From contig NZ_JAQOUE010000001.1 in the NCBI RefSeq assembly GCF_032191465.1, positions 930,001 through 994,000 on the forward strand: a stretch of DNA of 64,000 bases, written 5' to 3'. The translations under genes were made by a program, and so were the position numbers. The notes under the pieces are model-generated. The model saw only the letters and a list, made by a program, of their open reading frames with translations. It was not told the origin of the DNA and did not search any database. Of the stretch, positions 1,890-54,376 are shown one piece after another. The stretch's first letter is position 1. Every line of letters starts with the position of its first letter. The DNA is from Candidatus Nitronereus thalassa (lineage in GTDB: Bacteria > Nitrospirota > Nitrospiria > Nitrospirales > UBA8639).

Positions 1890-3827
1890 CTAATCGAGGT
1901 ATTGCCTTGCCCAAAGTTCGAACATGACAAGAGTCCACACCCGGTGCCAAAGTTGATGGGTACTAATCCTCAGTGCTCGTTCCCCATCATCAGTGACAAT
2001 GGCTTGCCGTATTTTTCCAACACTGAGTGGATCAAACAGACCACGTCGTTTGACTGAATCTGAAGAGAGACAATCTTCTAATAAGGCTTTCCATTCACCC
2101 GATTTAAACCATCCCCCAAATGGCACGGCAAACCCGGATTTCCCGCGATTCACGATTTCCTGGGGAAGGACATCAGCCAACGCTTCTTTGAGAATTGATT
2201 TGCTATTTTGACCCTCTAGCTTCATCTCAGGGGGAATCGTCCCTGCAAATTCAACAAGCTTGTGATCCAGCAAAGGGCATCGCACCTCCAGGGAACAAGC
2301 CATTGACATCCGATCCACTTTGACTAAGGAATCATCGACTAGATTGGTCTCAAGATCGCGGGCCATAAAACCAACGATGGGATCTTCAAAAACGGAAAGA
2401 TTGTTCAGATGGTTTCCGTTGTTGGTCAGGCTGGAATAATCCTGCAAATGCGCAGAGAAATCACCAGAGTAGAGGGCTCGCTTGTCAATTTCATCGTAAT
2501 AACTGAGCAGCGCAACCATACGCTCCGGCTCAGCCAGTGCACTTAAATCAATCGCCTTCCCCAATTTTCTTAAATTCTCACTCCCAGAACGCCATGTATC
2601 TTCCAAGAGATGATAACCCGCCCGAGATAACCACCCTAGGGAATGACGAAGTCCTTTGGGTAGAAGGGCCATTTTTCGAAGCCACCGGACATACTGATAA
2701 CGAGGATATCCGGCAAACAATTCATCTCCGCCATCTCCAGAAAGCGCCACGGTCACATGTTTGCGAGCAATTTGTGATACCTGATAGGTAGGGATCGCAG
2801 AAGAATCGGAAAATGGCTCATCTAAATACCACACCAATCGTTTCAAAAGATCGACGTTATACGGGCCGACAATTTCCTCCGTATGGTCGGTACCATAGGC
2901 CCTTGCCGCTATGCGAGCATAGTGGGTTTCATCAAATCGTTTGTCTTGAAACCCCATACTAAAGGTCTTGACCTGCGTGGATGGCAGTGCGTTACTCATT
3001 AAACCCACGACCGCCGTGGAATCGAGACCACCACTCAAAAAAGCCCCCAACGGCACATCGCTACGTAACCGCAGTCGCACTGACTCTTCTAATAGGCTAC
3101 GTAGCCCATCCACAAAATATTTTCGTGATTTTCCCCGATCAGGCTCTGGCTGAAATTGCCAATATCGGGTCAACTCTATATGACCAGTATCAACACATGC
3201 CACTAATCGGTGACCAGGGGGAAGTTTGTGCACATGTTCAAAGATTGATTTTGGAGATGGCACATAAAGAAAACTTAGATAATCATGGATCGCTCTGGCG
3301 TTGAGTGCTCGGTTTAATCCTGGCCAAGGGAGCAAGGCTTTAATTTCAGACGCAAACGCTAGTTGGTGGTTGTGAATACTCCAAAATAATGGTTTCTTTC
3401 CAATACGATCTCTAGTCAAAATCACCTGTCTTTTTTGACTATCCCACAAGGCCACCGCAAACATTCCACGCAGATGATAGGTGAAATCCAATCCATACGT
3501 TTCATAGGCATGAACAATGACCTCGGTGTCGGAATTTGTCCGAAATCGATGCCCTCGGTTCTGTAAATCAACGCGCAATTCCTTAAAGTTATAAATTTCC
3601 CCATTAAACATGACCCAAATGGTTCCGTCTTCATTAGAGACCGGTTGGGTTCCGGCTTCCAAATCGATGACTCGTAAGCGCCTAAACCCAAATCCCACTG
3701 GGCCATCAACCAGCGCCCCCTCTTCGTCAGGTCCTCGGTGGACTAACTTTGAGGCCATCCGTTTGACAATGGCCGGCTCATCCAATGGTCTACCATTTAG
3801 ATTGAACAGGCCCGCGATTCCACACAA
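1890..3827 (-). CDS. asnB: Asparagine-synthase-like glutamine amidotransferase (AsnB family)
   Basis: A 645-residue two-domain amidotransferase. The N-terminal class II glutaminase domain has the catalytic Cys2 (MCGIAG), RGPD at 31 and NGEIYN at 75. The C-terminal ATP-pyrophosphatase domain has SGGLDS at 265 and SGDGGDELFAGYPRY at about 364. The start codon is TTG: Cys must be residue 2 after Met removal, and a good ribosome site (AAGGAG) lies seven bases upstream. The length matches AsnB-like proteins found in exopolysaccharide/exosortase loci rather than the 550-residue E. coli AsnB. In this context it may amidate a sugar acid or other polymer component rather than make free asparagine, but that is inference. 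It sits directly upstream of a GT4 gene. Confidence 0.9.
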   Translation of the reverse strand: MCGIAGLFNLNGRPLDEPAIVKRMASKLVHRGPDEEGALVDGPVGFGFRRLRVIDLEAGTQPVSNEDGTIWVMFNGEIYNFKELRVDLQNRGHRFRTNSDTEVIVHAYETYGLDFTYHLRGMFAVALWDSQKRQVILTRDRIGKKPLFWSIHNHQLAFASEIKALLPWPGLNRALNARAIHDYLSFLYVPSPKSIFEHVHKLPPGHRLVACVDTGHIELTRYWQFQPEPDRGKSRKYFVDGLRSLLEESVRLRLRSDVPLGAFLSGGLDSTAVVGLMSNALPSTQVKTFSMGFQDKRFDETHYARIAARAYGTDHTEEIVGPYNVDLLKRLVWYLDEPFSDSSAIPTYQVSQIARKHVTVALSGDGGDELFAGYPRYQYVRWLRKMALLPKGLRHSLGWLSRAGYHLLEDTWRSGSENLRKLGKAIDLSALAEPERMVALLSYYDEIDKRALYSGDFSAHLQDYSSLTNNGNHLNNLSVFEDPIVGFMARDLETNLVDDSLVKVDRMSMACSLEVRCPLLDHKLVEFAGTIPPEMKLEGQNSKSILKEALADVLPQEIVNRGKSGFAVPFGGWFKSGEWKALLEDCLSSDSVKRRGLFDPLSVGKIRQAIVTDDGERALRISTHQLWHRVWTLVMFELWARQYLD

Positions 3828-38106: not shown

Positions 38107-39333
38107 TTAAAATTTTTTGGGATGAATGGTAGCCATGGAACCCGCAAGGCCTAGGAGTTTTCGAAGCAAATATACGGGATAACTTACAATGAGATACCAG
38201 GGCATAGATACTCCAGCGTCCTTTGCATGTTGTCGGGAAAATGCCACATAACGCCGAATAACACGACGAAAAATATTTCGAACCTTTTTGCTTCGTGCGT
38301 GATGACTTAAAGTATCAGAACAAGCCATGCTAAGCATCCATAAGCATACGGGACTCATATCCTGCTCCTGAAGCACAATTGCCTTTCGGATACTCCTTTT
38401 TATCAAGCGTTCTTCAAATGGAAACCCACAAAATCGAGAATGTAATTTCTTAAGAGCAACATCAGGCACATCTGCACACACAACCTCTTTCGCCAGCCAT
38501 AATGCATAATAGAGATATTTTGAAATCCTATAGTCCATGGCAATTGCGTCAAGCCTTTTCCAATCGATGTCGCTTCCGAAATGCTTAACCGATTCCTCAA
38601 GGTCATACAACACCTTAATTTTTCCGATATAAGAATCCACAGCTACATGCAGAGAAAGGTGAATCAATAAGTCCTCCGGAGACAGCATCTGACAGGGGAC
38701 ACCGGCAATCTCCACGTATCGTGCTCTCTCCCACAGGTCCTGAATTGGAATTTGTGTGGGAAACCGCTCCGAGACAAGATGACGGTGTAATTCAACTACA
38801 ATGGACTTATCCCTTGAAACATAGGGTACAATATGGTGATGATGTTGTTGATACCACTCTTTTGAGTGTTCCCTTTCGTTGGCCTCAAACCCGAGAGAAA
38901 TCAATATCTGTTCAGCTTTGGTCAAATCCTCCTCACGGACAAGGAGATCCACATCTGCCATGGGGCGAAGCCCAACGTGAGGGTACACCACATTTGCTAA
39001 TGCCGTGCCCTTCAGTGCCACAGAAAAAATTCCCTCTGCAGCAAAGAGGGTTAATACCTCTTTGAGACTTCCAAACCGTTTCATATTTCTGGCTTGGTTC
39101 CAGTACAGCAGAGATTTGCCTGTAGCCAGCACCTCCTCAGGTATTGCCAATGCACCTGATCCGTGTTTTAAACGATAGTACACGATGGGCCCAATTCCTA
39201 AAGTATTCGCATGATCGACCAGGGCCATCCAATTGATAGAGGAATCCCTCAACCCGAAACATGGATTTCCCGTCTCAACAAAATTAAGAAAGTTTAGAAA
39301 GGATTCATTATGATGAGCATATGCGGTAATCAT
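38107..39333 (-). CDS. Nucleotidyltransferase-fold protein of RiPP cluster (NTP_transf_5 family)
   Basis: A 408-residue protein with the NTP_transf_5 core: VALKGTALANVVYP, then RPMADVDLLV with the acidic metal-binding pair at about residue 135-140, and VELHRHLV. In the pseudomycoidin lasso pathway a homologous-type protein (PsmN) adds sugar to the phosphorylated peptide, which makes a decorating role likely here. The ATG at 39333 is chosen; the TTG at 39348 is also in frame. It is the last gene of the minus-strand peptide cluster, 57 bases after the exporter gene. The family has members with other roles, so its substrate is inferred from neighbours. Confidence 0.82.
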   Translation of the reverse strand: MITAYAHHNESFLNFLNFVETGNPCFGLRDSSINWMALVDHANTLGIGPIVYYRLKHGSGALAIPEEVLATGKSLLYWNQARNMKRFGSLKEVLTLFAAEGIFSVALKGTALANVVYPHVGLRPMADVDLLVREEDLTKAEQILISLGFEANEREHSKEWYQQHHHHIVPYVSRDKSIVVELHRHLVSERFPTQIPIQDLWERARYVEIAGVPCQMLSPEDLLIHLSLHVAVDSYIGKIKVLYDLEESVKHFGSDIDWKRLDAIAMDYRISKYLYYALWLAKEVVCADVPDVALKKLHSRFCGFPFEERLIKRSIRKAIVLQEQDMSPVCLWMLSMACSDTLSHHARSKKVRNIFRRVIRRYVAFSRQHAKDAGVSMPWYLIVSYPVYLLRKLLGLAGSMATIHPKKF

Positions 39334-39390
39334 GAAAGGCCCGTGCAAAGAATAGGGAAAATATAAATAGTGGAACGCCTTTACTTCTAG

Positions 39391-41199
39391 CTAGCGATAA
39401 TATTGAGCTTGCAGGGAAAACATTTTGGCATATTCACCATCGCGCTCCAATAAGTCATTATGATGACCACTCTCAAGAATCCGACCATCCTCTAAAACAT
39501 AGATACGATCCACCATTTTCACCGTGGAAAGCCGATGACTGATCAGGATCGCCGTTCGTCCTTTGGTCAGTTCATGGAAATGTTGGAACAGTTCATATTC
39601 GGCTTTCGCGTCCATAGCACTGGTGGGCTCATCAAGAATAACAATTTGGGCATCCCGCAAAAAAGCGCGGGCAATCGCTATCTTTTGCCACTCGCCAATA
39701 CTCAGCTCTTCTCCACCCTCAAACCAGCGGCCGAGAATGGTGTCATACCCCTTAGGCAACCGACGCAAGGCGCTATCAATTCCTGCCATTCGTGCGGCAT
39801 CGATCACCTGGTCCGTGTCACGAGGTAACAGGGTATTGCCCAGCCAAATATTTTCTCTTGCGGTGAAATGGTATTTAGCAAAATCCTGGAAGACGACACT
39901 GATTTCTTTTCGAAGTTCAGCAGGTTTCAAGTCTCGCAGATCAACCCCATCAATAGTAATGCGTCCCGCGGAAGGATCGTATAATCGAGCTAACAACTTC
40001 ACTAGGGTGGTTTTGCCAGCACCATTCTCTCCAACCAAGGCAATGTGTTCACCAGGCCTGATCGTTAGACTAATATCTTCCAGCACCTTTCGTGTCCCGC
40101 TGGGATAATCGAACTTTACATGATCAAAGACAATCCCCTGCTGCAAAGGTCGATGAATGGCCTGCGGGCGTTGGGGTTCCACGGCTTTGGGTTGTATATC
40201 CAGGAAATCATACAAATGAGTGAGAAAGAGGTTACTCTCGTATAAATACGCCAGGTTCATCATTAAGCTCTGAAGAAAGCCCGCGCCACGTTGCACCGCC
40301 TGAAAGTACATGACCAAATCCCCCAACGTGAGAAATCCAAGAAGGGTCTGATAAGCAAAAAATATATTCACGCCAATCGCTGCAGCCACACTGCTGGAAT
40401 GAGCAACAAGTTCGGCAATCGACCGCCGCCCCTCAAGTGATAACCGTTCCCGCCGGATACCTTCACGAAGATTCCGAAATCTGTCAATAAACAGTTTGCC
40501 AAGATCAAATAACCGTATTTCCTTCGCATGGGTGTCACGCGTAAGCATCAAATTGAGATACCAAGACTCCCGTTCAGCCGGGGTCGTTCCCTTTTGCCAG
40601 GCATAGAGTTTCTTTCCATATCGCAATCGCACAAAAACAATGGGAAGCGCCGTCCCAATAAGGACAAAAAGAATTCCCCAATGGAACCAGAACAATAGGG
40701 CCCCAATCGCGATTAATGAAATCCCATTTTGTCCAGTATCAAACAGGGCCGAGAGAATCCGGGTGGGGCGGGAGGATGCCTCCCGTTGAGCGCGGTGCAA
40801 AGTATTGTAGTACTGAGGTTCCTCGTAATACTCCAAATCAACATCAACTGATTTCGCATGCAGTATAGAAGACATGTAATCCGTCACGGCTTGCGCCTGA
40901 CCGGTATGCACAAAACTCTTGAGGATGGAACAGGCGGTACTCGCAACGGCCACGACACCCAGAAGGCTGAGCAAGAAGATCACTTCATACAATCCGGCTG
41001 AGGGATTTGAACTTGACAGGTTGGCCGTGACTGAATCAATGACCAACTTGATTAAATACAGCATCGCCAGGGGAAGCAGTCCCTGAACGACAAGGAGAGC
41101 CGCACTGGCGAGGGTCCATCCTCGACCACTATCCCACACAAATCTCAACGCACGAAACAAATTCTGTGCCAAGGTATGAGCCGATGTTTTTGGAGTCAT
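39391..41199 (-). CDS. ABC exporter of RiPP cluster (permease-ATPase fusion)
   Basis: A 602-residue half-transporter with about six membrane segments in residues 25-310 and an ABC ATPase domain with GENGAGKTT, signature LSIGEWQKIAIARAFL and VILDEPTSAMD. The signature has I in place of the usual second G (LSIGE rather than LSGGQ), as is common in the lasso-peptide D exporters. No N-terminal C39 peptidase domain is present, so leader removal must come from the B2 protein. The ATG overlaps the B2 stop (ATGA). Its expected cargo is the mature peptide encoded at 44080-44193. Confidence 0.88.
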   Translation of the reverse strand: MTPKTSAHTLAQNLFRALRFVWDSGRGWTLASAALLVVQGLLPLAMLYLIKLVIDSVTANLSSSNPSAGLYEVIFLLSLLGVVAVASTACSILKSFVHTGQAQAVTDYMSSILHAKSVDVDLEYYEEPQYYNTLHRAQREASSRPTRILSALFDTGQNGISLIAIGALLFWFHWGILFVLIGTALPIVFVRLRYGKKLYAWQKGTTPAERESWYLNLMLTRDTHAKEIRLFDLGKLFIDRFRNLREGIRRERLSLEGRRSIAELVAHSSSVAAAIGVNIFFAYQTLLGFLTLGDLVMYFQAVQRGAGFLQSLMMNLAYLYESNLFLTHLYDFLDIQPKAVEPQRPQAIHRPLQQGIVFDHVKFDYPSGTRKVLEDISLTIRPGEHIALVGENGAGKTTLVKLLARLYDPSAGRITIDGVDLRDLKPAELRKEISVVFQDFAKYHFTARENIWLGNTLLPRDTDQVIDAARMAGIDSALRRLPKGYDTILGRWFEGGEELSIGEWQKIAIARAFLRDAQIVILDEPTSAMDAKAEYELFQHFHELTKGRTAILISHRLSTVKMVDRIYVLEDGRILESGHHNDLLERDGEYAKMFSLQAQYYR

Positions 41200-41771
41200 G
41201 ATCTATCCTTCGCAGTACACACCATGGAAGTTCCCTCACTACCATTTGACACTGGCGTTTGAGAAAGATTTGATGGTCGTGCAAGTCCAGAATTTCGCCA
41301 AGTCGAACTCGCGACACCCCTTTTCACATCTCTATGGGGATAGGAATAGGTCACCACGTTAGTAGTAAATGGGTTTCCGGATTCTAAAAAAGGTTGGTTG
41401 TGCAAGCTGAGCCAAGCATGACCTTGCAATTCTCCATTCACTCGGCTCACCCCGCAATGAAAGTGGACAGGGAACCCACTTCGCCTTCCAAAGGCATACA
41501 AGGCAAGAGAACGAACCAAACAACACCCACGAGGATTTGATGGAAATCTATCGAGCACACTAGTGATATACCGGTCGACAATTGATAATTTATGATGGCG
41601 AGGGACTGCGGAAGCCGAATAGGGAGTTAACCAACGTAACAATGTTGGGAGCTTAACCCACCGCACGAACAGGCGAAGGACACTCGTGACCCCGAGCACT
41701 TGCCACGCAAGCAAGAATTCACTGAGATTTTTCGGTGGAGTGTTCGGCCACCCCCATTTCTGCTTCCTCAC
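41196..41771 (-). CDS. Lasso-type B2 leader peptidase (transglutaminase-like)
   Basis: A 191-residue protein of the lasso peptide B2 family. The cysteine-protease-like core has RGCCLVRSLALYAFGRR with the catalytic Cys at residue 84 (Cys83 adjacent) and GHAWLSL with His118. B2 proteins cut the leader from the precursor bound to B1. The start is a GTG at 41771 with GAGG ten bases upstream, lying inside the end of the upstream kinase gene (4-base gap). It is coupled to the exporter by ATGA. In known lasso pathways B2 acts just before the cyclase, which is absent from this cluster. Confidence 0.88.
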   Translation of the reverse strand: MRKQKWGWPNTPPKNLSEFLLAWQVLGVTSVLRLFVRWVKLPTLLRWLTPYSASAVPRHHKLSIVDRYITSVLDRFPSNPRGCCLVRSLALYAFGRRSGFPVHFHCGVSRVNGELQGHAWLSLHNQPFLESGNPFTTNVVTYSYPHRDVKRGVASSTWRNSGLARPSNLSQTPVSNGSEGTSMVCTAKDRS

Positions 41772-41775
41772 AGAC

Positions 41776-42768
41776 TTACCACCTCTCCATCAGTGGATCA
41801 ATTAGTCGGGGGAGATCCAATACGTCCTGGCCAAACAACAGTCGATAACAAGATGACTGTTTCACGAGTTTTGATAAAAGATGAAATTCTTGTTTTGCGA
41901 TGTCATTACCCCTAGGCAAAAAGCTCTCGCGGATGAGGCTATCCAGCGCCTGTGTGCCTGATACCCGTTCAAGAACACTGGTCGGGCGATCCATGACCTG
42001 TGGAAAAATGATCAATCCTGGCTTACACGAGGTCGCCAACCCTTCGGAGTACACATTCTCGATCAGGAAATAGGGTTTCCGCATTCCTGGGTGAATATAT
42101 TCACGTGCGGATCTGAGTTCCGGAAAAAATTCGATTGAGTCCTCTGTGACATCAACCTTTTCCGGAAAAGAATAAATGTTCAAACCATTTCCATTTTCAT
42201 GAACAAGAGGATGATCATCTGAGAGGCACCGATACCCCGATCGAAGGAGCGAAAGAAATGCCGTGGTTTTTCCACGCCCACTATTGCCAGGAATCAGCAC
42301 GGCACGGCCATTTTTTTCAAGAGAAGTAGCATGAAGCGTGAAATAGCCTTTACGTTTGAGAATATTTTGAAGAGCCAGATGAATCAGGTTCATTCGAAGT
42401 TCGGAAGGCACGTTCTCTGGGTCTACAATGTATCCCTCCACATGCCCTAAATGTTGATCAATCACAAACAGATAACCACTACTCCGGGAATCAAAAATCA
42501 ATCGGCCTTGGTCTTGATACACAGCATTGTGCACATCGATCCTTGCCTGATTTTTTGGAGCACTTAGACAAATGGCCTCCGCAGAAAGGGCCAAAGGAAT
42601 ATCCGACGGTAAAGGAACCCCGTGCAAGGAAAGACTCAGCCCAGCAGCCCCTTTAATTGAATTCACAGGGAAATAACGAAGCAAAAATTTTGCGGATTCA
42701 GCAATAGCAGAGGTATTGGTAGAAAATTGAAGCGAATTTCCGTGTATGTAAAAGTTCAGAATATGCAT
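41776..42768 (-). CDS. HPr-kinase-like peptide kinase, copy 2
   Basis: A 330-residue protein of the HprK-related family. P-loop GNSGRGKTT at residues 161-169 and a conserved CLSDDHPLV segment with the acidic pair at 184-185 match HprK kinase features; the HPr-docking N-terminal domain of classical HprK is replaced by a different beta-rich region. In paeninodin-type lasso clusters such kinases phosphorylate the C-terminal Ser of the peptide. The ATG at 42768 is used. It is paralogous to the kinase just upstream (shared layout, SLLR and FFPEL motifs), so two kinases act in this cluster or one has a new role. Confidence 0.85.
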   Translation of the reverse strand: MHILNFYIHGNSLQFSTNTSAIAESAKFLLRYFPVNSIKGAAGLSLSLHGVPLPSDIPLALSAEAICLSAPKNQARIDVHNAVYQDQGRLIFDSRSSGYLFVIDQHLGHVEGYIVDPENVPSELRMNLIHLALQNILKRKGYFTLHATSLEKNGRAVLIPGNSGRGKTTAFLSLLRSGYRCLSDDHPLVHENGNGLNIYSFPEKVDVTEDSIEFFPELRSAREYIHPGMRKPYFLIENVYSEGLATSCKPGLIIFPQVMDRPTSVLERVSGTQALDSLIRESFLPRGNDIAKQEFHLLSKLVKQSSCYRLLFGQDVLDLPRLIDPLMERW

Positions 42769-42891
42769 GACCTAAATGGAAAATGATCTTTTTTTTCGAA
42801 TCATTGAAAACTTTGTCATGGAACTCGCTGGTCTACAATTCGATGTTTGACGAATGGCACACGGAATAGTTCCTAGGTCAGAATAACCGCA

Positions 42892-43950
42892 TTAGACCGC
42901 TGCATTTGTGAACGATGCAGCCCTTACGCCCATTTGACTGCCGTCCCCACAACATTTTTGGAGAATAGGATCAAGGAGAGTGGGCAAGTCCCAACGATCT
43001 TCCCCATAATGCAGACGATAACAAGGTGTTCGTTCCACCAACGTGGAGTACAGTTGAAACTCGCGCTTGGCTATTTCCTTATCATGAATCAGCAATCCCT
43101 GAGGAAGCAGTTCTTTGAGCGCAAGGTGTTTCGACATCGGCTTCAGATAACTCTGCTTCTCTGAGACCACCTGAGGAAAGAGTAGTAAATGACATTCACA
43201 GGAATCCACCTTGGTTCCAGGAAACAGGTCGTTCACATAGAAGGAATCTTTTTTCGATCGGTCTCGACGAGTGAGGGGAATGGTTTGCAGTTCAGGGAAA
43301 AACCCAAGAGTTTTCTCCCGAACATCAATCCGATCATGACCAGCGAGGATTTCGATCCTACTTTCTTTGATTCTGAGAAACGGAAAATCATCCGAGATAA
43401 ACCCATAGCCCGCTCGAAGAAGGGAAAGACCAGCCGTTGTTTTTCCTAACCCAGGTTTTCCAGCGATCATCACACCTTTGCCAAACCGCTCCATTGCCAC
43501 GGCATGAATCTCATAAAGCCCTTTCCAGCGAAGTAGTTCAGCAATAGCTACGTTCACAAAGAAAGAACGTAACTCCAGATCCATTGATTCAGGTTTGACT
43601 AGATATGCTCTAGCGAGTGCACCAGGGCCATTAATAAAAATAAGCCCATATTGATAAAGTTCAATAACCAGTTTTTCTTGATCTTGGTAAAATTCATAAG
43701 TTAAACCAAAGCGCTTGACCTCCTTCTCTAACTTTCCCTTTCGTCGTATAAGGTTACATTTTGATTTTAAAATGGTGGTGGGAATTTGGTTCAAGTGAGC
43801 AATAGCATGGAGTTCAACCCGGACATCAGATGTGATGGCCTCAGAACCTAGTGAGTCTTGAGAAAGGTCCGAAAAAGCTTCACAAATGGCGAAGCTTTTT
43901 GTGGACAACTTGACCCCGATACCATGTATAGGAAAACACGATTCGTACAT
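42892..43950 (-). CDS. HPr-kinase-like peptide kinase, copy 1
   Basis: A 352-residue HprK-related protein. P-loop GKPGLGKTT at residues 164-172, followed by FISDDFPFL with the acidic pair at 187-188, matches the kinase core. The N-terminal 140 residues resemble those of copy 2 in layout but not closely in sequence. Start at the ATG at 43950 with AAGGA about ten bases upstream. It is the first gene after the hairpin downstream of the precursor gene and is separated from copy 2 by about 120 bases. A target Ser/Thr on the peptide is expected, but phosphorylation of another cluster protein is possible. Confidence 0.85.
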   Translation of the reverse strand: MYESCFPIHGIGVKLSTKSFAICEAFSDLSQDSLGSEAITSDVRVELHAIAHLNQIPTTILKSKCNLIRRKGKLEKEVKRFGLTYEFYQDQEKLVIELYQYGLIFINGPGALARAYLVKPESMDLELRSFFVNVAIAELLRWKGLYEIHAVAMERFGKGVMIAGKPGLGKTTAGLSLLRAGYGFISDDFPFLRIKESRIEILAGHDRIDVREKTLGFFPELQTIPLTRRDRSKKDSFYVNDLFPGTKVDSCECHLLLFPQVVSEKQSYLKPMSKHLALKELLPQGLLIHDKEIAKREFQLYSTLVERTPCYRLHYGEDRWDLPTLLDPILQKCCGDGSQMGVRAASFTNAAV

Positions 43951-44025
43951 GTATGATGATATCCTTGTTTCCGTCAGATAAGTGCACCTTCACAGGGGGG
44001 ACAACCGGAATTCATGCAATCAACT

Positions 44026-44071
44026 AAATGAGGCCCCGGCCACCTCAATGGAAGATACCGGGGCCTCATTT
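44026..44071 (-). terminator. Perfect 14-bp stem-loop between precursor and kinase genes
   Basis: Arms AAATGAGGCCCCGG (44026-44039) and CCGGGGCCTCATTT (44058-44071) pair perfectly with an 18-base loop. It starts 9 bases after the precursor stop in the minus-strand transcript. The U-tract after it is short (TTTAG), so it is more likely a leaky terminator or an RNA-end stabiliser that gives more precursor than enzyme mRNA. Confidence 0.75.
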
Positions 44072-44079
44072 ATTACTAC

Positions 44080-44193
44080 CTAAGAGCTTCCACTTTGACT
44101 TTTTGCACTTCTATATCCCTTGGAAGCAGTAATATCCTTCAGAGGATCTTGCTTTTGCAGCTGAGGAGCTACATACATTTCTTTTTGCATCAT
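44080..44193 (-). CDS. Lasso-like RiPP precursor peptide (37 residues)
   Basis: Short ORF of 37 residues. The leader has a Y-x-x-P-x-L recognition motif, MYVAPQLQKQDPLKDIT from residue 6, as in lasso precursors that bind a PqqD-like B1 protein. Thr22 is placed like the conserved -2 Thr, giving a putative core SKGYRSAKSQSGSS of 14 residues with six Ser and no Asp or Glu. The start is one of two adjacent ATGs (44193 or 44190) behind a near-perfect AAAGGAGGTGA ribosome site, which lies within the end of the pqqD-like gene. A hairpin follows at 44026-44071. The missing acidic residue argues against a classical lasso ring; C-terminal Ser residues are candidate phosphorylation sites. The cleavage site is inferred. 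Confidence 0.8.
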   Translation of the reverse strand: MMQKEMYVAPQLQKQDPLKDITASKGYRSAKSQSGSS

Positions 44194-44194
44194 C

Positions 44195-44533
44195 TCACCT
44201 CCTTTCATTTTGGATTAGGCCTTCCTGACTAAGATGTTCTACAAGTGACAACAGATCATGTTGTGCCATATCTTCACTCACTTCAAAACATTCACAAATC
44301 CTCCCATGCACTTGGCTTAAAGTTCGCTCTCCATCAAAAAGTTCCCATGCCACAGTTCCGACTCGATTTAAAGTGAAGTACGACCCAGTTTCCAGGTTGA
44401 GGAGTATTGCCTCTCCGTCCAACACGGAACATTGGACATCTGGATCAGGAACCACAATGGTATTCTCCCAATTTGCCTTTCCTTCTACTTCCACTTCCTC
44501 ATCCGATTCATTTTTTCCCTGCTTTAACAGCAT
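44195..44533 (-). CDS. PqqD-family RiPP recognition protein (B1)
   Basis: A 112-residue protein with the PqqD fold: about 30 charged residues, then VQCSVLDGEAILLNLETGSY, FTLNRVGTVAWELFDG and a C-terminal helical part. PqqD-like proteins (B1 in lasso clusters) bind the leader peptide and bring it to the B2 peptidase and tailoring enzymes. The ATG at 44533 with GGAGG eight bases upstream is chosen over the GTG at 44590. The stop is one base before the precursor start, and its last codons contain the precursor's ribosome site, so the two are translated together. It is the first gene of the peptide cluster. Confidence 0.88.
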   Translation of the reverse strand: MLLKQGKNESDEEVEVEGKANWENTIVVPDPDVQCSVLDGEAILLNLETGSYFTLNRVGTVAWELFDGERTLSQVHGRICECFEVSEDMAQHDLLSLVEHLSQEGLIQNERR

Positions 44534-44853
44534 CACTTTTTCCTCCGAATGATATTTTAATTTCTTAAACGCCCATTTTTTCTTTACCACCTTAAATGGT
44601 TATGAAGGGCCGAGTCCTATCCATAAAACCAGCAGCTAAAGGTAACGAGGATGAACTGAAGGTAAAATACGCAATTGCCCGTATCATCCCCCCCTCCAAA
44701 AAGGGGAATACACCGCATGAACGTGGCAACTAAAAAAATGAATTCGCTGGTAATAAAAAGGCTGAATAGCCAGATTTCGTAGGAACAAGAAATTGATTAA
44801 TGGCAACGAGATATTTGAGGAGTTTCAATACTAAAATCACATCAGCAACTTAC
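44534..44853. other. Promoter region of the RiPP cluster
   Basis: About 320 bases between the CREST-like membrane-protein gene and the pqqD-like gene, all minus strand. It contains a CCCCCCTCC-AAAAA-GGGG stretch at about 44688-44704 and a short GGCT/AGCC hairpin followed by TTTTT near 44758-44774 (minus sense), a possible weak terminator of the upstream gene. A 31-codon frame (44592-44687) is discussed among the rejected items. No clear -35/-10 pair was found. Confidence 0.4.
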
Positions 44854-49264: not shown

Positions 49265-49966
49265 AGCTTCCTCCTTATTCCCGGACCTTGGAAAGTAATT
49301 TCCCCGATTACAAGCAGGCCCTAAAATAAATAAGCCGCATAAGGACTTTTCGCCCTCTGCGGCATCTTATAAAAAAGAATTCTCATTATAAAAACCAAAA
49401 TAATAAAGGCACGATCTACCATAGCCACCAGAATATGTCAATAACAATACGCAATATCATTTAATCTAAAATAATTTGAGGATTTGAATACCATTTAACC
49501 CCTCCAATTTCATAATTTTTCAAAGACCACATAGACCTTTCCACGCCTCAAAAATTATCCCTGCACATTTTTCCTAGCAAAGTGGGCTTCGACATTGTCC
49601 TCAAACCCTTGAAAACGACCCGTTAATTCTACATTTACGTATATATACTGAAATCACCTCACTGCACCCTAAGCATTCTCACTCACAATTCATTCGTTCA
49701 CAAACAATTTTAACTACTTGTTTTTATTATTTTTTTTATGTCCAAAACATAAAGGCATCGTTATTGCTGATCCCGGTACTGATTTAAACGAATTCAAACA
49801 AAAAATTTCCATCACAGGCCCAAAATTTTAAATGGGCAATTTTTTATTAGGCACTATAGGCAGGTTTTTCACTTAACTAAATTAATCTAGGTATAAAAAC
49901 TTAATTTTTATTCCAGAAAACAAAGAAAAGATATCACCCCAAGAAGAAAACCCCATGGAGCGCATA
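49265..49966. other. A+T-rich intergenic region between divergent cold-shock and repeat-protein genes
   Basis: About 700 bases without a supported gene. It carries the hairpin near 49333-49363 on the side of the cold-shock gene and a short GCCCA/TGGGC hairpin with a following T-run at 49818-49848. It must hold promoters for two divergent genes. No CRISPR, tRNA or repeated units were found in it. Confidence 0.45.
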
Positions 49967-52900
49967 ATGAAGAGTGTTCAATCCCTGATCCGAATAACGA
50001 CATTTCCAATCATACCGTTTTTACTTCTTACGAACTTTTCTTTGCTATTGGCTCCTCAAACTACATCCGGGACTACTTCAGAGACTGGGACATTAAGTTG
50101 GTCACCAAATCCTGAACCAGACTTGGCCGGATATGAAATTTTTTTTGGAGACCAACCTGGTGTTTACAACCACCCCAATTCACCCATTTCTGTTGGGAAC
50201 GTGACAAACTACACCTTTCCGACCGGAACACTCTTACCAGGTATTACCTACTCTTTCGCGCTAAAAGCCAAAGACGATTCCAATAACATGAGTGGCCTCT
50301 CCCAGGAAATCACAGGTGGCCTTCCTCCGGTCATTACCTTTCCCACGATTTCAATCACATCCCCAGTGAATGGGTCCACTATTTCAGGAATTGTTCTAGT
50401 CTCTGCCAATGCGAGTGACGTTTCAGGAATTAACCATGTTCAATTCTTTTTGGATGGTAGTCCCCTAGGAGCCCCAGACACATCCGCACCGTTTGCTATT
50501 AACTGGAATACTTCGGGACTGGTAGGCACTCATACCTTAGCCGCACGAGCACGTAATAATACGGGTCAGGAAACAACCACTCCAGCCATTTTAGTTACGC
50601 TCGGTGGCCCGACGGGGTCTCCCGAGATCGCTTGGGAAGCCACCCACCAAAATACCGGGGCGTCATGGACCAACTCCAGTTGGCATGATCGCAGTTTCCG
50701 TGTCTTGCTCGACGGGGCCGCCATTACCCGCTCCGGCACCACCGTGCAACTGACCCTCCACGGCCGCTCCTCCGGAAATTACACCCTCCAGCGCGTCTCG
50801 TTGGTTCGCCGCGACGGCACCTCCCTCGATGGCGTCGATAGCTCCTTCACCCACGTCACCTTTGGCAGTTCCTGGAATGCCGGCGTCACCGTCCCCGCCG
50901 GCGACTCCATCACCAGTGATCCCATTGCCTTCGACCTTCTCGCCGGGCAGGATGTCTTTCTCTCCTTTTGGGTCCCCGCCGGCTCCCCCACCGTCTATTT
51001 CCCCGGCGGCAGCCAAACCACGGCCTGGACCATCACAGGCAACGATATCACCTCCACGATTGATTGGGAGGGCCATACCATCTCCGAAAGCAATAGCAAC
51101 GTCTATGTGGCAGACACCTTGGAAGTGCTGGCCACGAATGGGCCAACGCCCTTGCCCCTGACCGTGACCCTCGCCGGCACCGGCGCCGGTACCGTCACCA
51201 GCCAGGATAGTACTCTGAGTTGTCCCGGGGGCTGCTCCCAGAACTACCCCGCAGGCACCACGGTAACTTTGACAGCCCAGGCCGCCGCCGGCTCCTCCTT
51301 TCAAGGCTGGTCCGGTGCAGGCTGCTCCGGGACCGGGTCCTGCCTCGTGACACTCCAGCAAGCAACCGTCGTCTCAGCGAATTTTGTCACCGTCTCCCCG
51401 CCCCCTGACTCGACACCACCAACCGTGGCCATCATGAATCCGGCACCCGGCGGACTGGTTTCGGGCATCGTGTCGATTGCCGCCACGGCCTCTGACAATA
51501 TTGGGGTCGCCGGCGTCCGGTTTTATGTAAATAATTCTCCCCTCGGCAACGAAGACACCCAAGCGCCCTATACAATCAATTGGGACACCACTGGACTTGC
51601 TCCCAATACGTATGAACTCAAAGCTCTTGCCCGCGATGTCGCGGGTAATGAAAGTCTCTCGGGCATCGTCCCAGTTACGCTCGGTGGCCCGACGGGGTCT
51701 CCCGAGATCGCTTGGGAAGCCACCCACCAAAATACCGGGGCGTCATGGACCAACTCCAGTTGGCATGATCGCAGTTTCCGTGTCTTGCTCGACGGGGCCG
51801 CCATTACCCGCTCCGGCACCACCGTGCAACTGACCCTCCACGGCCGCTCCTCCGGAAATTACACCCTCCAGCGCGTCTCGTTGGTTCGCCGCGACGGCAC
51901 CTCCCTCGATGGCGTCGATAGCTCCTTCACCCACGTCACCTTTGGCAGTTCCTGGAATGCCGGCGTCACCGTCCCCGCCGGCGACTCCATCACCAGTGAT
52001 CCCATTGCCTTCGACCTTCTCGCCGGGCAGGATGTCTTTCTCTCCTTTTGGGTCCCCGCCGGCTCCCCCACCGTCTATTTCCCCGGCGGCAGCCAAACCA
52101 CGGCCTGGACCATCACAGGCAACGATATCACCTCCACGATTGATTGGGAGGGCCATACCATCTCCGAAAGCAATAGCAACGTCTATGTGGCAGACACCTT
52201 GGAAGTGCTGGCCACGAATGGGCCAACGCCCTTGCCCCTGACCGTGACCCTCGCCGGCACCGGCGCCGGTACCGTCACCAGCCAGGATAGTACTCTGAGT
52301 TGTCCCGGGGGCTGCTCCCAGAACTACCCCGCAGGCACCACGGTAACTTTGACAGCCCAGGCCGCCGCCGGCTCCTCCTTTCAAGGCTGGTCCGGTGCAG
52401 GCTGCTCCGGGACCGGGTCCTGCCTCGTGACACTCCAGCAAGCAACCGTCGTCTCAGCGAATTTTGTCACCGTCTCCCCGCCCCCTGACTCGACACCACC
52501 AACCGTGGCCATCATGAATCCGGCACCCGGCGGACTGGTTTCGGGCATCGTGTCGATTGCCGCCACGGCCTCTGACAATATTGGGGTCGCCGGCGTCCGG
52601 TTTTATGTAAATAATTCTCCCCTCGGCAACGAAGACACCCAAGCGCCCTATACAATCAATTGGGACACCACTGGACTTGCTCCCAATACGTATGAACTCA
52701 AAGCTCTTGCCCGCGATGTCGCGGGTAATGAAAGTCTCTCGGGCATCGTCCCAGTTACGCTCGGTGGCCCGACGGGGTCTCCCGAGATCGCTTGGGAAGC
52801 CACCCACCAAAATACCGGGGCGTCATGGACCAACTCCAGTTGGCATGATCGCAGTTTCCGTGTCTTGCTCGACGGGGCCGCCATTACCCGCTCCGGCACC

Positions 52901-54376
52901 ACCGTGCAACTGACCCTCCACGGCCGCTCCTCCGGAAATTACACCCTCCAGCGCGTCTCGTTGGTTCGCCGCGACGGCACCTCCCTCGATGGCGTCGATA
53001 GCTCCTTCACCCACGTCACCTTTGGCAGTTCCTGGAATGCCGGCGTCACCGTCCCCGCCGGCGACTCCATCACCAGTGATCCCATTGCCTTCGACCTTCT
53101 CGCCGGGCAGGATGTCTTTCTCTCCTTTTGGGTCCCCGCCGGCTCCCCCACCGTCTATTTCCCCGGCGGCAGCCAAACCACGGCCTGGACCATCACAGGC
53201 AACGATATCACCTCCACGATTGATTGGGAGGGCCATACCATCTCCGAAAGCAATAGCAACGTCTATGTGGCAGACACCTTGGAAGTGCTGGCCACGAATG
53301 GGCCAACGCCCTTGCCCCTGACCGTGACCCTCGCCGGCACCGGCGCCGGTACCGTCACCAGCCAGGATAGTACTCTGAGTTGTCCCGGGGGCTGCTCCCA
53401 GAACTACCCCGCAGGCACCACGGTAACTTTGACAGCCCAGGCCGCCGCCGGCTCCTCCTTTCAAGGCTGGTCCGGTGCAGGCTGCTCCGGGACCGGGTCC
53501 TGCCTCGTGACACTCCAGCAAGCAACCGTCGTCTCAGCGAATTTTGTCACCGTCTCCCCGCCCCCTGACTCGACACCACCAACCGTGGCCATCATGAATC
53601 CGGCACCCGGCGGACTGGTTTCGGGCATCGTGTCGATTGCCGCCACGGCCTCTGACAATATTGGGGTCGCCGGCGTCCGGTTTTATGTAAATAATTCTCC
53701 CCTCGGCAACGAAGACACCCAAGCGCCCTATACAATCAATTGGGACACCACTGGACTTGCTCCCAATACGTATGAACTCAAAGCTCTTGCCCGCGATGTC
53801 GCGGGTAATGAAAGTCTCTCGGGCATCGTCCCAGTTACGCTCGGTGGCCCGACGGGGTCTCCCGAGATCGCTTGGGAAGCCACCCACCAAAATACCGGGG
53901 CGTCATGGACCAACTCCAGTTGGCATGATCGCAGTTTCCGTGTCTTGCTCGACGGGGCCGCCATTACCCGCTCCGGCACCACCGTGCAACTGACCCTCCA
54001 CGGCCGCTCCTCCGGAAATTACACCCTCCAGCGCGTCTCGTTGGTTCGCCGCGACGGCACCTCCCTCGATGGCGTCGATAGCTCCTTCACCCACGTCACC
54101 TTTGGCAGTTCCTGGAATGCCGGCGTCACCGTCCCCGCCGGCGACTCCATCACCAGTGATCCCATTGCCTTCGACCTTCTCGCCGGGCAGGATGTCTTTC
54201 TCTCCTTTTGGGTCCCCGCCGGCTCCCCCACCGTCTATTTCCCCGGCGGCAGCCAAACCACGGCCTGGACCATCACAGGCAACGATATCACCTCCACGAT
54301 TGATTGGGAGGGCCATACCATCTCCGAAAGCAATAGCAACGTCTATGTGGCAGACACCTTGGAAGTGCTGCCCTAA
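49967..54376 (+). CDS. Secreted tandem-repeat protein (FN3, Ig-like and InlB-type repeat domains)
   Basis: About 1,469 residues. A hydrophobic signal (residues about 13-32) is followed by an FN3-like domain (LSWSPNPEPDLAGYEIFF...) and a first Ig-like domain (SPVNGSTISGIVLVSANASD). From about residue 210 three complete 360-residue units and half of a fourth follow. Each unit has a beta-sandwich part (EIAWEATHQNTGASWTNSSW), an InlB B-repeat-like part (TVTLAGTGAGTVTS... GWSGAGCSGTGSC, with paired Cys) and an Ig-like part (TPPTVAIMNPAPGGLVSG). The ATG at 49967 is chosen because GGAG lies six bases upstream; the ATG at 49955 is also in frame. There is no sorting signal or membrane anchor at the C-terminus, which stops right after a beta-sandwich part (VLP). 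Likely an extracellular or surface adhesion protein. Confidence 0.85.
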   Translation: MKSVQSLIRITTFPIIPFLLLTNFSLLLAPQTTSGTTSETGTLSWSPNPEPDLAGYEIFFGDQPGVYNHPNSPISVGNVTNYTFPTGTLLPGITYSFALKAKDDSNNMSGLSQEITGGLPPVITFPTISITSPVNGSTISGIVLVSANASDVSGINHVQFFLDGSPLGAPDTSAPFAINWNTSGLVGTHTLAARARNNTGQETTTPAILVTLGGPTGSPEIAWEATHQNTGASWTNSSWHDRSFRVLLDGAAITRSGTTVQLTLHGRSSGNYTLQRVSLVRRDGTSLDGVDSSFTHVTFGSSWNAGVTVPAGDSITSDPIAFDLLAGQDVFLSFWVPAGSPTVYFPGGSQTTAWTITGNDITSTIDWEGHTISESNSNVYVADTLEVLATNGPTPLPLTVTLAGTGAGTVTSQDSTLSCPGGCSQNYPAGTTVTLTAQAAAGSSFQGWSGAGCSGTGSCLVTLQQATVVSANFVTVSPPPDSTPPTVAIMNPAPGGLVSGIVSIAATASDNIGVAGVRFYVNNSPLGNEDTQAPYTINWDTTGLAPNTYELKALARDVAGNESLSGIVPVTLGGPTGSPEIAWEATHQNTGASWTNSSWHDRSFRVLLDGAAITRSGTTVQLTLHGRSSGNYTLQRVSLVRRDGTSLDGVDSSFTHVTFGSSWNAGVTVPAGDSITSDPIAFDLLAGQDVFLSFWVPAGSPTVYFPGGSQTTAWTITGNDITSTIDWEGHTISESNSNVYVADTLEVLATNGPTPLPLTVTLAGTGAGTVTSQDSTLSCPGGCSQNYPAGTTVTLTAQAAAGSSFQGWSGAGCSGTGSCLVTLQQATVVSANFVTVSPPPDSTPPTVAIMNPAPGGLVSGIVSIAATASDNIGVAGVRFYVNNSPLGNEDTQAPYTINWDTTGLAPNTYELKALARDVAGNESLSGIVPVTLGGPTGSPEIAWEATHQNTGASWTNSSWHDRSFRVLLDGAAITRSGTTVQLTLHGRSSGNYTLQRVSLVRRDGTSLDGVDSSFTHVTFGSSWNAGVTVPAGDSITSDPIAFDLLAGQDVFLSFWVPAGSPTVYFPGGSQTTAWTITGNDITSTIDWEGHTISESNSNVYVADTLEVLATNGPTPLPLTVTLAGTGAGTVTSQDSTLSCPGGCSQNYPAGTTVTLTAQAAAGSSFQGWSGAGCSGTGSCLVTLQQATVVSANFVTVSPPPDSTPPTVAIMNPAPGGLVSGIVSIAATASDNIGVAGVRFYVNNSPLGNEDTQAPYTINWDTTGLAPNTYELKALARDVAGNESLSGIVPVTLGGPTGSPEIAWEATHQNTGASWTNSSWHDRSFRVLLDGAAITRSGTTVQLTLHGRSSGNYTLQRVSLVRRDGTSLDGVDSSFTHVTFGSSWNAGVTVPAGDSITSDPIAFDLLAGQDVFLSFWVPAGSPTVYFPGGSQTTAWTITGNDITSTIDWEGHTISESNSNVYVADTLEVLP
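50593..54370 (+). repeat. 1,080-bp tandem repeats inside the secreted-protein gene (3.5 copies)
   Basis: Copies run 50593-51672, 51673-52752, 52753-53832 and a partial copy 53833-54370. All bases compared between copies at the same offset are identical. The unit codes for 360 residues and keeps frame. Its G+C is much higher than the flanks: 40 of 60 bases at 50701-50760 against 27 of 60 at 50101-50160. Confidence 0.95.

Follow-up and report, generated by a model that had tools for sequence, protein, structure and literature searches.

Gene order and parts of the cluster

In a window of 64,000 nucleotides from Candidatus Nitronereus thalassa, a member of the Nitrospirota, we analysed a gene cluster for a ribosomally synthesised and post-translationally modified peptide (RiPP) that has lasso-type parts and no lasso cyclase. 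An earlier note on this DNA had described such parts as contiguous at positions 38107 to 44533, and all the genes it named were found there, all on the minus strand (Table 1). In the order of transcription they encode B1, a 36-residue precursor, the kinases K1 and K2, the leader peptidase B2, the ATP-binding cassette (ABC) exporter D and the NTP_transf_5 protein N. The genes of B1 and the precursor are 1-4 nt apart, those of K2 and B2 4 nt and those of D and N 42 nt, and B2 and D overlap by 4 nt. Larger gaps lie ahead of K1 (about 130 nt, containing a hairpin) and ahead of K2 (123 nt). For B1, a longer open reading frame is possible from a GTG at 44590, and the closest NCBIfam model is lasso_PqqD_Bac with 54 bits, under the cut-off of 80.

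Table 1. Parts of the cyclase-free cluster in the window, and the ATP-grasp stretches of two related loci (positions within each locus).
Feature	Positions	Strand	Remarks
B1, PqqD-type RiPP recognition element (RRE)	44195..44533	-	112 aa from ATG 44533; PF05402 E 5.5e-16, 59 bits, above cut-off
Precursor, leader MQKEMYVAPQLQKQDPLKDITA and core SKGYRSAKSQSGSS	44080..44190	-	36 aa; alternative ATG 44193; read directly
Hairpin, 16-bp stem	44025..44072	-	directly 3' of the precursor stop, separating the precursor gene from the kinase genes; fold -39.7 kcal/mol; z -4.2 relative to dinucleotide-shuffled sequences
K1, HprK-like kinase	42892..43950	-	352 aa; PF07475 E 1.3e-8, barely above cut-off
K2, HprK-like kinase	41776..42768	-	330 aa; best NCBIfam match HprK_rel_A E 3e-18, under the curated cut-off
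B2, transglutaminase-like leader peptidase	41196..41771	-	191 aa; NF033537 lasso_biosyn_B2 46 bits, cut-off 33; PF13471 E 1.1e-12
D, ABC exporter	39391..41199	-	602 aa; PF00005 E 2e-34
N, NTP_transf_5 nucleotidyltransferase-like protein	38107..39348	-	413 aa, TTG start; PF14907 E 1.5e-56, 192 bits, cut-off 31
ATP-grasp variant, L022	15114-16987		
ATP-grasp variant, L023	15613-17471		

The precursor has a lasso-type leader and a core without a ring acceptor

The leader of the window precursor has the features of a lasso leader, a YxxP box (YVAP) and a threonine at -2 (ITA), and by homology the cleavage would take place after Thr-Ala. The core SKGYRSAKSQSGSS is rich in serine, with Ser at positions 1 and 6 and at the C-terminus; as a linear peptide without modification it has a calculated [M+H]+ of 1429.703. 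It contains neither Asp nor Glu and hence no ring acceptor at positions 7 to 9, so that the isopeptide bond of a lasso peptide could not form.

Across the family, 109 precursor candidates were collected, about 10 of which are chance reading frames (such as those of L105 at 1665 and 16274). Since the search pattern demanded a threonine at -2, this residue is true by construction in the 109 candidates. Independent evidence for it comes from the unfiltered short reading frames in the gap between B1 and K of the relatives, which share the leader plan YxxPxLxKHELLRD(I/V)T(A/G). Some hundred precursors could be sorted into types. In the DITA type, all 46 have a serine as the third residue of the core (Ser3). 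In the DVTA type, found in the Nitrospira defluvii group, the serine is at position 4 (16 of 18) and most cores start with IQLSR, and precursors of the DVTG and DITG types accompany ATP-grasp genes.

The characterised kinases PadeK and ThcoK phosphorylate a serine of the precursor (PMC9266682, PMC8498205), which in paeninodin-type precursors is the C-terminal one (PMC9266682). A C-terminal serine is rare across the present family (9 of the 109 candidates). In the main subfamily, the DITA type, the kinase site is likely to be Ser3 of the core, to judge from its conservation, rather than the C-terminal serine of paeninodin.

The genome encodes no recognisable lasso cyclase

The source genome comprises 4.01 Mb in 2 contigs and is 98.7% complete. 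No asparagine-synthetase-like reading frame lies between 38 and 46 kb, and the sole gene of this kind in the window (1890-3827) is far from the cluster, both as the earlier note had stated. In the whole genome we found five full-length asparagine synthetase (AsnB) homologues. All five begin with (M)CG and so retain the glutaminase cysteine (Cys2), and their best score with the lasso-cyclase model NF033535 was 266 bits, where the cut-off is 525. In a tree, they grouped with ordinary AsnB, outside the clade of four Nitrospirota lasso cyclases (100/100). In these cyclases, a serine replaces the glutaminase cysteine in all 3 that have a readable start. The whole-genome search, which had been named beforehand as a way to refute a cyclase-free pathway, thus found no lasso C protein in the cluster or elsewhere. 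The search for further precursors with the same leader, likewise proposed in advance, returned a single copy only; the genome holds one B2, one PqqD-family gene (B1) and one precursor of this kind.

The enzymes retain conserved catalytic residues

K1 retains the catalytic histidine, the P-loop lysine and the Asp-Asp pair of the HprK fold that mark the HprK-type lasso kinases PadeK and ThcoK. In 41 homologues of the kinase family, K1 among them, His146, Gly164, Gly166, Lys167 of the P-loop and Asp184-Asp185 are invariant. K2 was predicted with a mean local distance difference test score (pLDDT) of 90 to have the PEPCK/HprK fold, and its profile matches the HprK structures 1ko7 and 1jb1. With TIGR04352 (HprK_rel_A), the two window kinases scored 65.9 and 51.9 bits against a cut-off of 200, which places them outside the HprK_rel_A system.

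In N, Gly114 and Asp132 are invariant and Asp134 almost so among 38 homologues. Among solved folds, the core of its predicted model (pLDDT 81) comes nearest to LnuA, ANT(2'')-Ia, TM1012 and FKRP, with E-values that are marginal (2e-3 and worse); the likeness is to nucleotidyltransferases of the lincosamide and aminoglycoside type, and is weaker to FKRP. PsmN, a protein of the pseudomycoidin cluster with the same kind of annotation as N, adds a hexose to phosphoserine (PMC9266682, PMC8498205), possibly after nucleotidylation (PMC9266682). In B2, Cys84 and His118 are present in 63 of 64 aligned homologues and Glu130 in 59 of 64. A sequence search of the PDB with N and B2 gave no useful match. 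The conserved residues of K, N and B2 are compatible with active enzymes.

The cyclase-free set is conserved in Nitrospirota

An alignment of B2 was searched against 396 sampled Nitrospirota genomes, most of them metagenome assemblies, and matched in 69; the survey covered the Nitrospirota and, beyond them, plasmids. B1, precursor, K, N and B2 without a cyclase were found at 55 loci in 50 genomes, L177 being scattered and doubtful. A neighbourhood of this kind, conserved across species, was what the earlier note had named as support for a distinct class. Another 11 loci are partial, owing to contig ends, decay or missing parts, and some genomes carry two cyclase-free sets. In the named GTDB contigs, the B2 alignment found 37 loci. 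Each of them is labelled Nitrospira, Nitrospirales, Nitrospiraceae or Nitrospirae, and Candidatus Nitrospira defluvii, which has the set (L060), is among them; the same contigs gave no match when the window B2 was the single query. AsnB-like matches of 476-557 residues beside many B2 genes of the relatives resembled cyclases and were rejected, as they are PurF (start ECAVFGI). NF033535 at E 1e-100 is imperfect and did not pick up one genuine cyclase, that of G037 (L018). Whether the other genomes lack a cyclase was therefore judged by inspecting the loci, and for the window's genome additionally by Cys2, by the tree and by the presence of one B2 only.

Between close pairs of relatives, the ratio of non-synonymous to synonymous substitution rates (dN/dS) was 0.07-0.33 for B1, B2, K, N and D. 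This is purifying selection, and the cyclase-free sets are thus maintained. In the B2 tree, the window B2 grouped with those of L020, L022 and L023, which come from the same family. The cyclase-associated B2s came together, with L164 among them (a B2 with an internal stop, where no cyclase was seen), and L164 raises the number of label changes on the tree from one to two. The 12 cyclase rows as one clade were not rejected (p-AU 0.15). Divergent cyclase-free rows, namely L156-L159 and L163, lie closer to the cyclase clade than does the B2 of the window.

Decayed cyclase-free clusters were seen at L150, L151, L152 and L160, where B2 and K are broken and N survives in three. Some species have therefore lost the set, and one of them (L160) belongs to the same family as the window.

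The plasmid searches gave remote relatives only. On a Streptosporangium plasmid (NZ_CP109431.1, L166 7926-10063), a 7-deazaguanine-type cluster contains an HprK-like protein and, next to it, a protein of a nucleotidyltransferase family; neither PqqD nor B2 is annotated there, and the K-N pair may work jointly outside RiPPs. Plasmid MP1 of Deinococcus radiodurans (L165 7086-8402) encodes an orphan protein of 438 residues with the annotation lasso B2, and its surroundings have neither a cyclase nor a PqqD annotation.

A folded stretch directly after the precursor is present in most cyclase-free loci (z < -2 against mononucleotide shuffles for 67 of 96 candidate reading frames), and strong hairpins follow most precursors in the loci L105-L149, L020, L022 and L023. 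The window hairpin, which had no match in Rfam, is likely to be an attenuator or an mRNA stabiliser. Elsewhere in the window, a protein of 1473 residues (49955-54376) has near-identical long tandem repeats of about 1080 bp per unit and surface-protein-like segments.

Lasso clusters and ATP-grasp variants in the relatives

A cyclase is present at 14 Nitrospirota loci (L017-L019, L161, L168-L176, L178), 12 of which have both B1 and B2. These are ordinary lasso clusters, and their precursors have Asp or Glu at core position 8-9 (9 of 9 read) and mostly a YGxxxKLT leader. N and a weak K homologue also occur in L017, L018, L019, L161, L169-L174 and L178, and in L017 a PRMT-like methyltransferase gene lies between cyclase and kinase.

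A second variation concerns an MvdD-like ATP-grasp enzyme of the graspetide type, which is encoded together with a degenerate partner in L022, L023, L117, L119, L121, L123, L126, L128, L129, L131, L136, L146, L147 and L149. Besides B2 and mostly D, these loci contain a B1, often as a second copy, and mostly one more kinase. Their precursors are rich in Lys, Asp and Glu, for example MEQQKKESYAEPVLIAHELLRDVTG followed by QKYKEKTSDKVADDV. In these loci, the lasso leader module is naturally combined with an enzyme of the graspetide type. A GMC oxidoreductase pair was noticed in L023 and L136 and a 2-oxoglutarate-Fe(II) oxygenase in L022. The window cluster contains no ATP-grasp gene, and the best match in its genome is distant (E 1.9e-4).

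Interpretation of the pathway

The reading we favour, with a probability of about 0.72, is a complete and working RiPP pathway in which a lasso leader-processing module (B1, B2 and the YxxP/Thr(-2) leader) operates without a lasso cyclase and with modification by K and N, and which would yield a linear exported product. B1 would bind the YxxP leader and present the precursor to the HprK-like kinases, K1 and K2 would phosphorylate serine in the core, and N would act on the phosphorylated residue by hexose or nucleotidyl transfer. B2 would then cut after Thr-Ala and remove the leader, and D would export the linear phosphorylated and possibly further decorated peptide. We infer this order of steps from the genes, together with the sites and chemistry of cleavage and modification, the export and any biological role. 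The linear decorated peptide proposed in the earlier note is consistent with our results, its linearity being deduced from the fact that both the cyclase and the ring-acceptor residues are lacking. As the core is rich in serine and the kinase is doubled, our guess is that the window peptide carries more than one phosphate.

Since the same cyclase-free set is found in about 50 related Nitrospirota genomes, it probably represents a functional, so far undescribed class of modified peptide rather than a lasso cluster that has broken down. For the wider proposal we see even chances, namely that this is a distinct, phylum-wide RiPP class with B1/B2 and K/N as the core pathway, the cyclase not being part of it, ATP-grasp enzymes as an optional addition and a linear phospho- or phospho-glyco-peptide as the product.

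Several observations weigh against the favoured reading. The window core lacks Ser3, the conserved position of the DITA type, and at least one core of the family has neither Ser nor Thr. The kinase site is uncertain, because the C-terminal serine used by the characterised kinases is found in just 9 of the 109 candidates. Asp or Glu occurs at core positions 7-9 in 44 of the 109, making a ring chemically possible in those relatives, and an enzyme that escaped recognition might nevertheless close a ring in the peptide. In the Nitrospira defluvii group, no exporter adjoins the cluster. Finally, the pathway and its product are predicted from the genes.

Instead of a secreted peptide, the pathway might yield an intracellular peptide-derived signal or cofactor, with the precursor used as for pyrroloquinoline quinone. 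This is unlikely, but it has the most in its favour among the alternatives. In the defluvii group, where no exporter is adjacent, the core start IQLSR is almost fixed across species, and proteins of the HprK and PqqD families occur in other NCBIfam cassettes (SynChlorMet, HprK_rel_A), which were matched here under cut-off. However, B2 is paired with a conserved ABC exporter in the window and in many other loci (phmmer E 1e-188 to 1e-223 for the D homologues adjoining B2 in cyclase-free loci), and the cores in exporter loci resemble secreted peptides in being variable and, in many cases, rich in Gly.

It is also conceivable, with a distinctly lower probability, that K and N activate a carboxylate and close a ring by a chemistry unlike that of the lasso cyclase. 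The fold predicted for N is that of enzymes transferring a nucleoside monophosphate or a phospho-sugar, and the ATP-grasp enzymes added in some relatives indicate that the system recruits ring-forming enzymes. However, the window has no ATP-grasp gene nearby, and its core offers no carboxylate in a side chain, which leaves head-to-tail closure as the sole option.

The earlier note had left it undecided whether the cyclase was lost or had never been present. That a lasso cluster has recently lost its cyclase and is now decaying is very improbable. Its parts list does equal that of the paeninodin and pseudomycoidin clusters minus C, and decayed relatives exist (broken B2 and K in L150-L152, remnants in L160). 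However, 55 loci are cyclase-free, their B2s form old lineages of their own, dN/dS is well below 1, the catalytic residues are intact and the window core has no acceptor. In the main, conservation refutes a recent loss.

Least probable of all is a true lasso pathway served in trans by one of the five AsnB-like genes, for although four relatives (G248, G283, G319, G394) hold the cyclase-free set or its B2 beside a separate lasso cluster, the cyclase there adjoins its own B1 (and B2 in 3 of 4), and in the window's genome cysteine, tree and score all speak for ordinary AsnB and the core lacks Asp and Glu.

Significance and comparison with known systems

The B2 leader peptidase and the B1 RRE are usually taken as lasso markers, and cyclase-free clusters are filed as incomplete in genome mining. 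In a survey of rumen lasso clusters, 'incomplete' clusters were listed and largely completed by manual curation (PMC7533575). A search of the open-access literature, which leaves aside subscription papers and most preprints, found no report of B1/B2/kinase clusters that are conserved without a cyclase, and none of clusters of the lasso type in Nitrospira. Our results show that some 50 genomes of one phylum keep a cyclase-free B1/B2 set under selection. A linear and phosphorylated product would represent an undescribed RiPP class and offer a setting in which the action of HprK-like kinases and NTP_transf_5 proteins on peptides can be learned without the complication of lasso folding. The ATP-grasp members suggest that RiPP classes exchange leader-processing modules and ring-forming enzymes with one another. 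The chief nitrite oxidisers belong to the Nitrospirota, and few natural products are known from them.

Like the paeninodin and ThcoK/SyanK clusters, the window cluster has a split B1/B2, a YxxP leader with Thr(-2), an HprK-like kinase and an ABC exporter, and its core ends in Ser. It differs from them in lacking the C cyclase and the Asp/Glu acceptor and in having two kinases. With the pseudomycoidin cluster (PsmK, PsmN) it shares the kinase and the nucleotidyltransferase-like protein, whereas pseudomycoidin is a true lasso peptide made with a C protein and the cyclase-free family is without C throughout. The likeness to these two systems seen in the earlier note therefore holds for the parts list, but not for the C-terminal serine, which only the window precursor and a few others have.

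Several relatives resemble the MvdC/MvdD-type graspetide systems in combining an MvdD-like ATP-grasp enzyme with B1, whereas the window cluster has no such gene. We know of no graspetide that uses the lasso B1/B2. The ordinary lasso clusters of the Nitrospirota have the same B1 and B2 families as the window set, YxxP leaders and mostly N with a weak K homologue, but differ in the cyclase, the acceptor at core 8-9, the YGxxxKLT leader and the B2 lineage. In conclusion, the window set has the B1 RRE, the transglutaminase-like B2 and the YxxP/Thr(-2) leader of a lasso pathway, and would work like one as far as the removal of the leader. As it lacks the cyclase and the ring acceptor, two defining features, it should not be filed as a lasso peptide.

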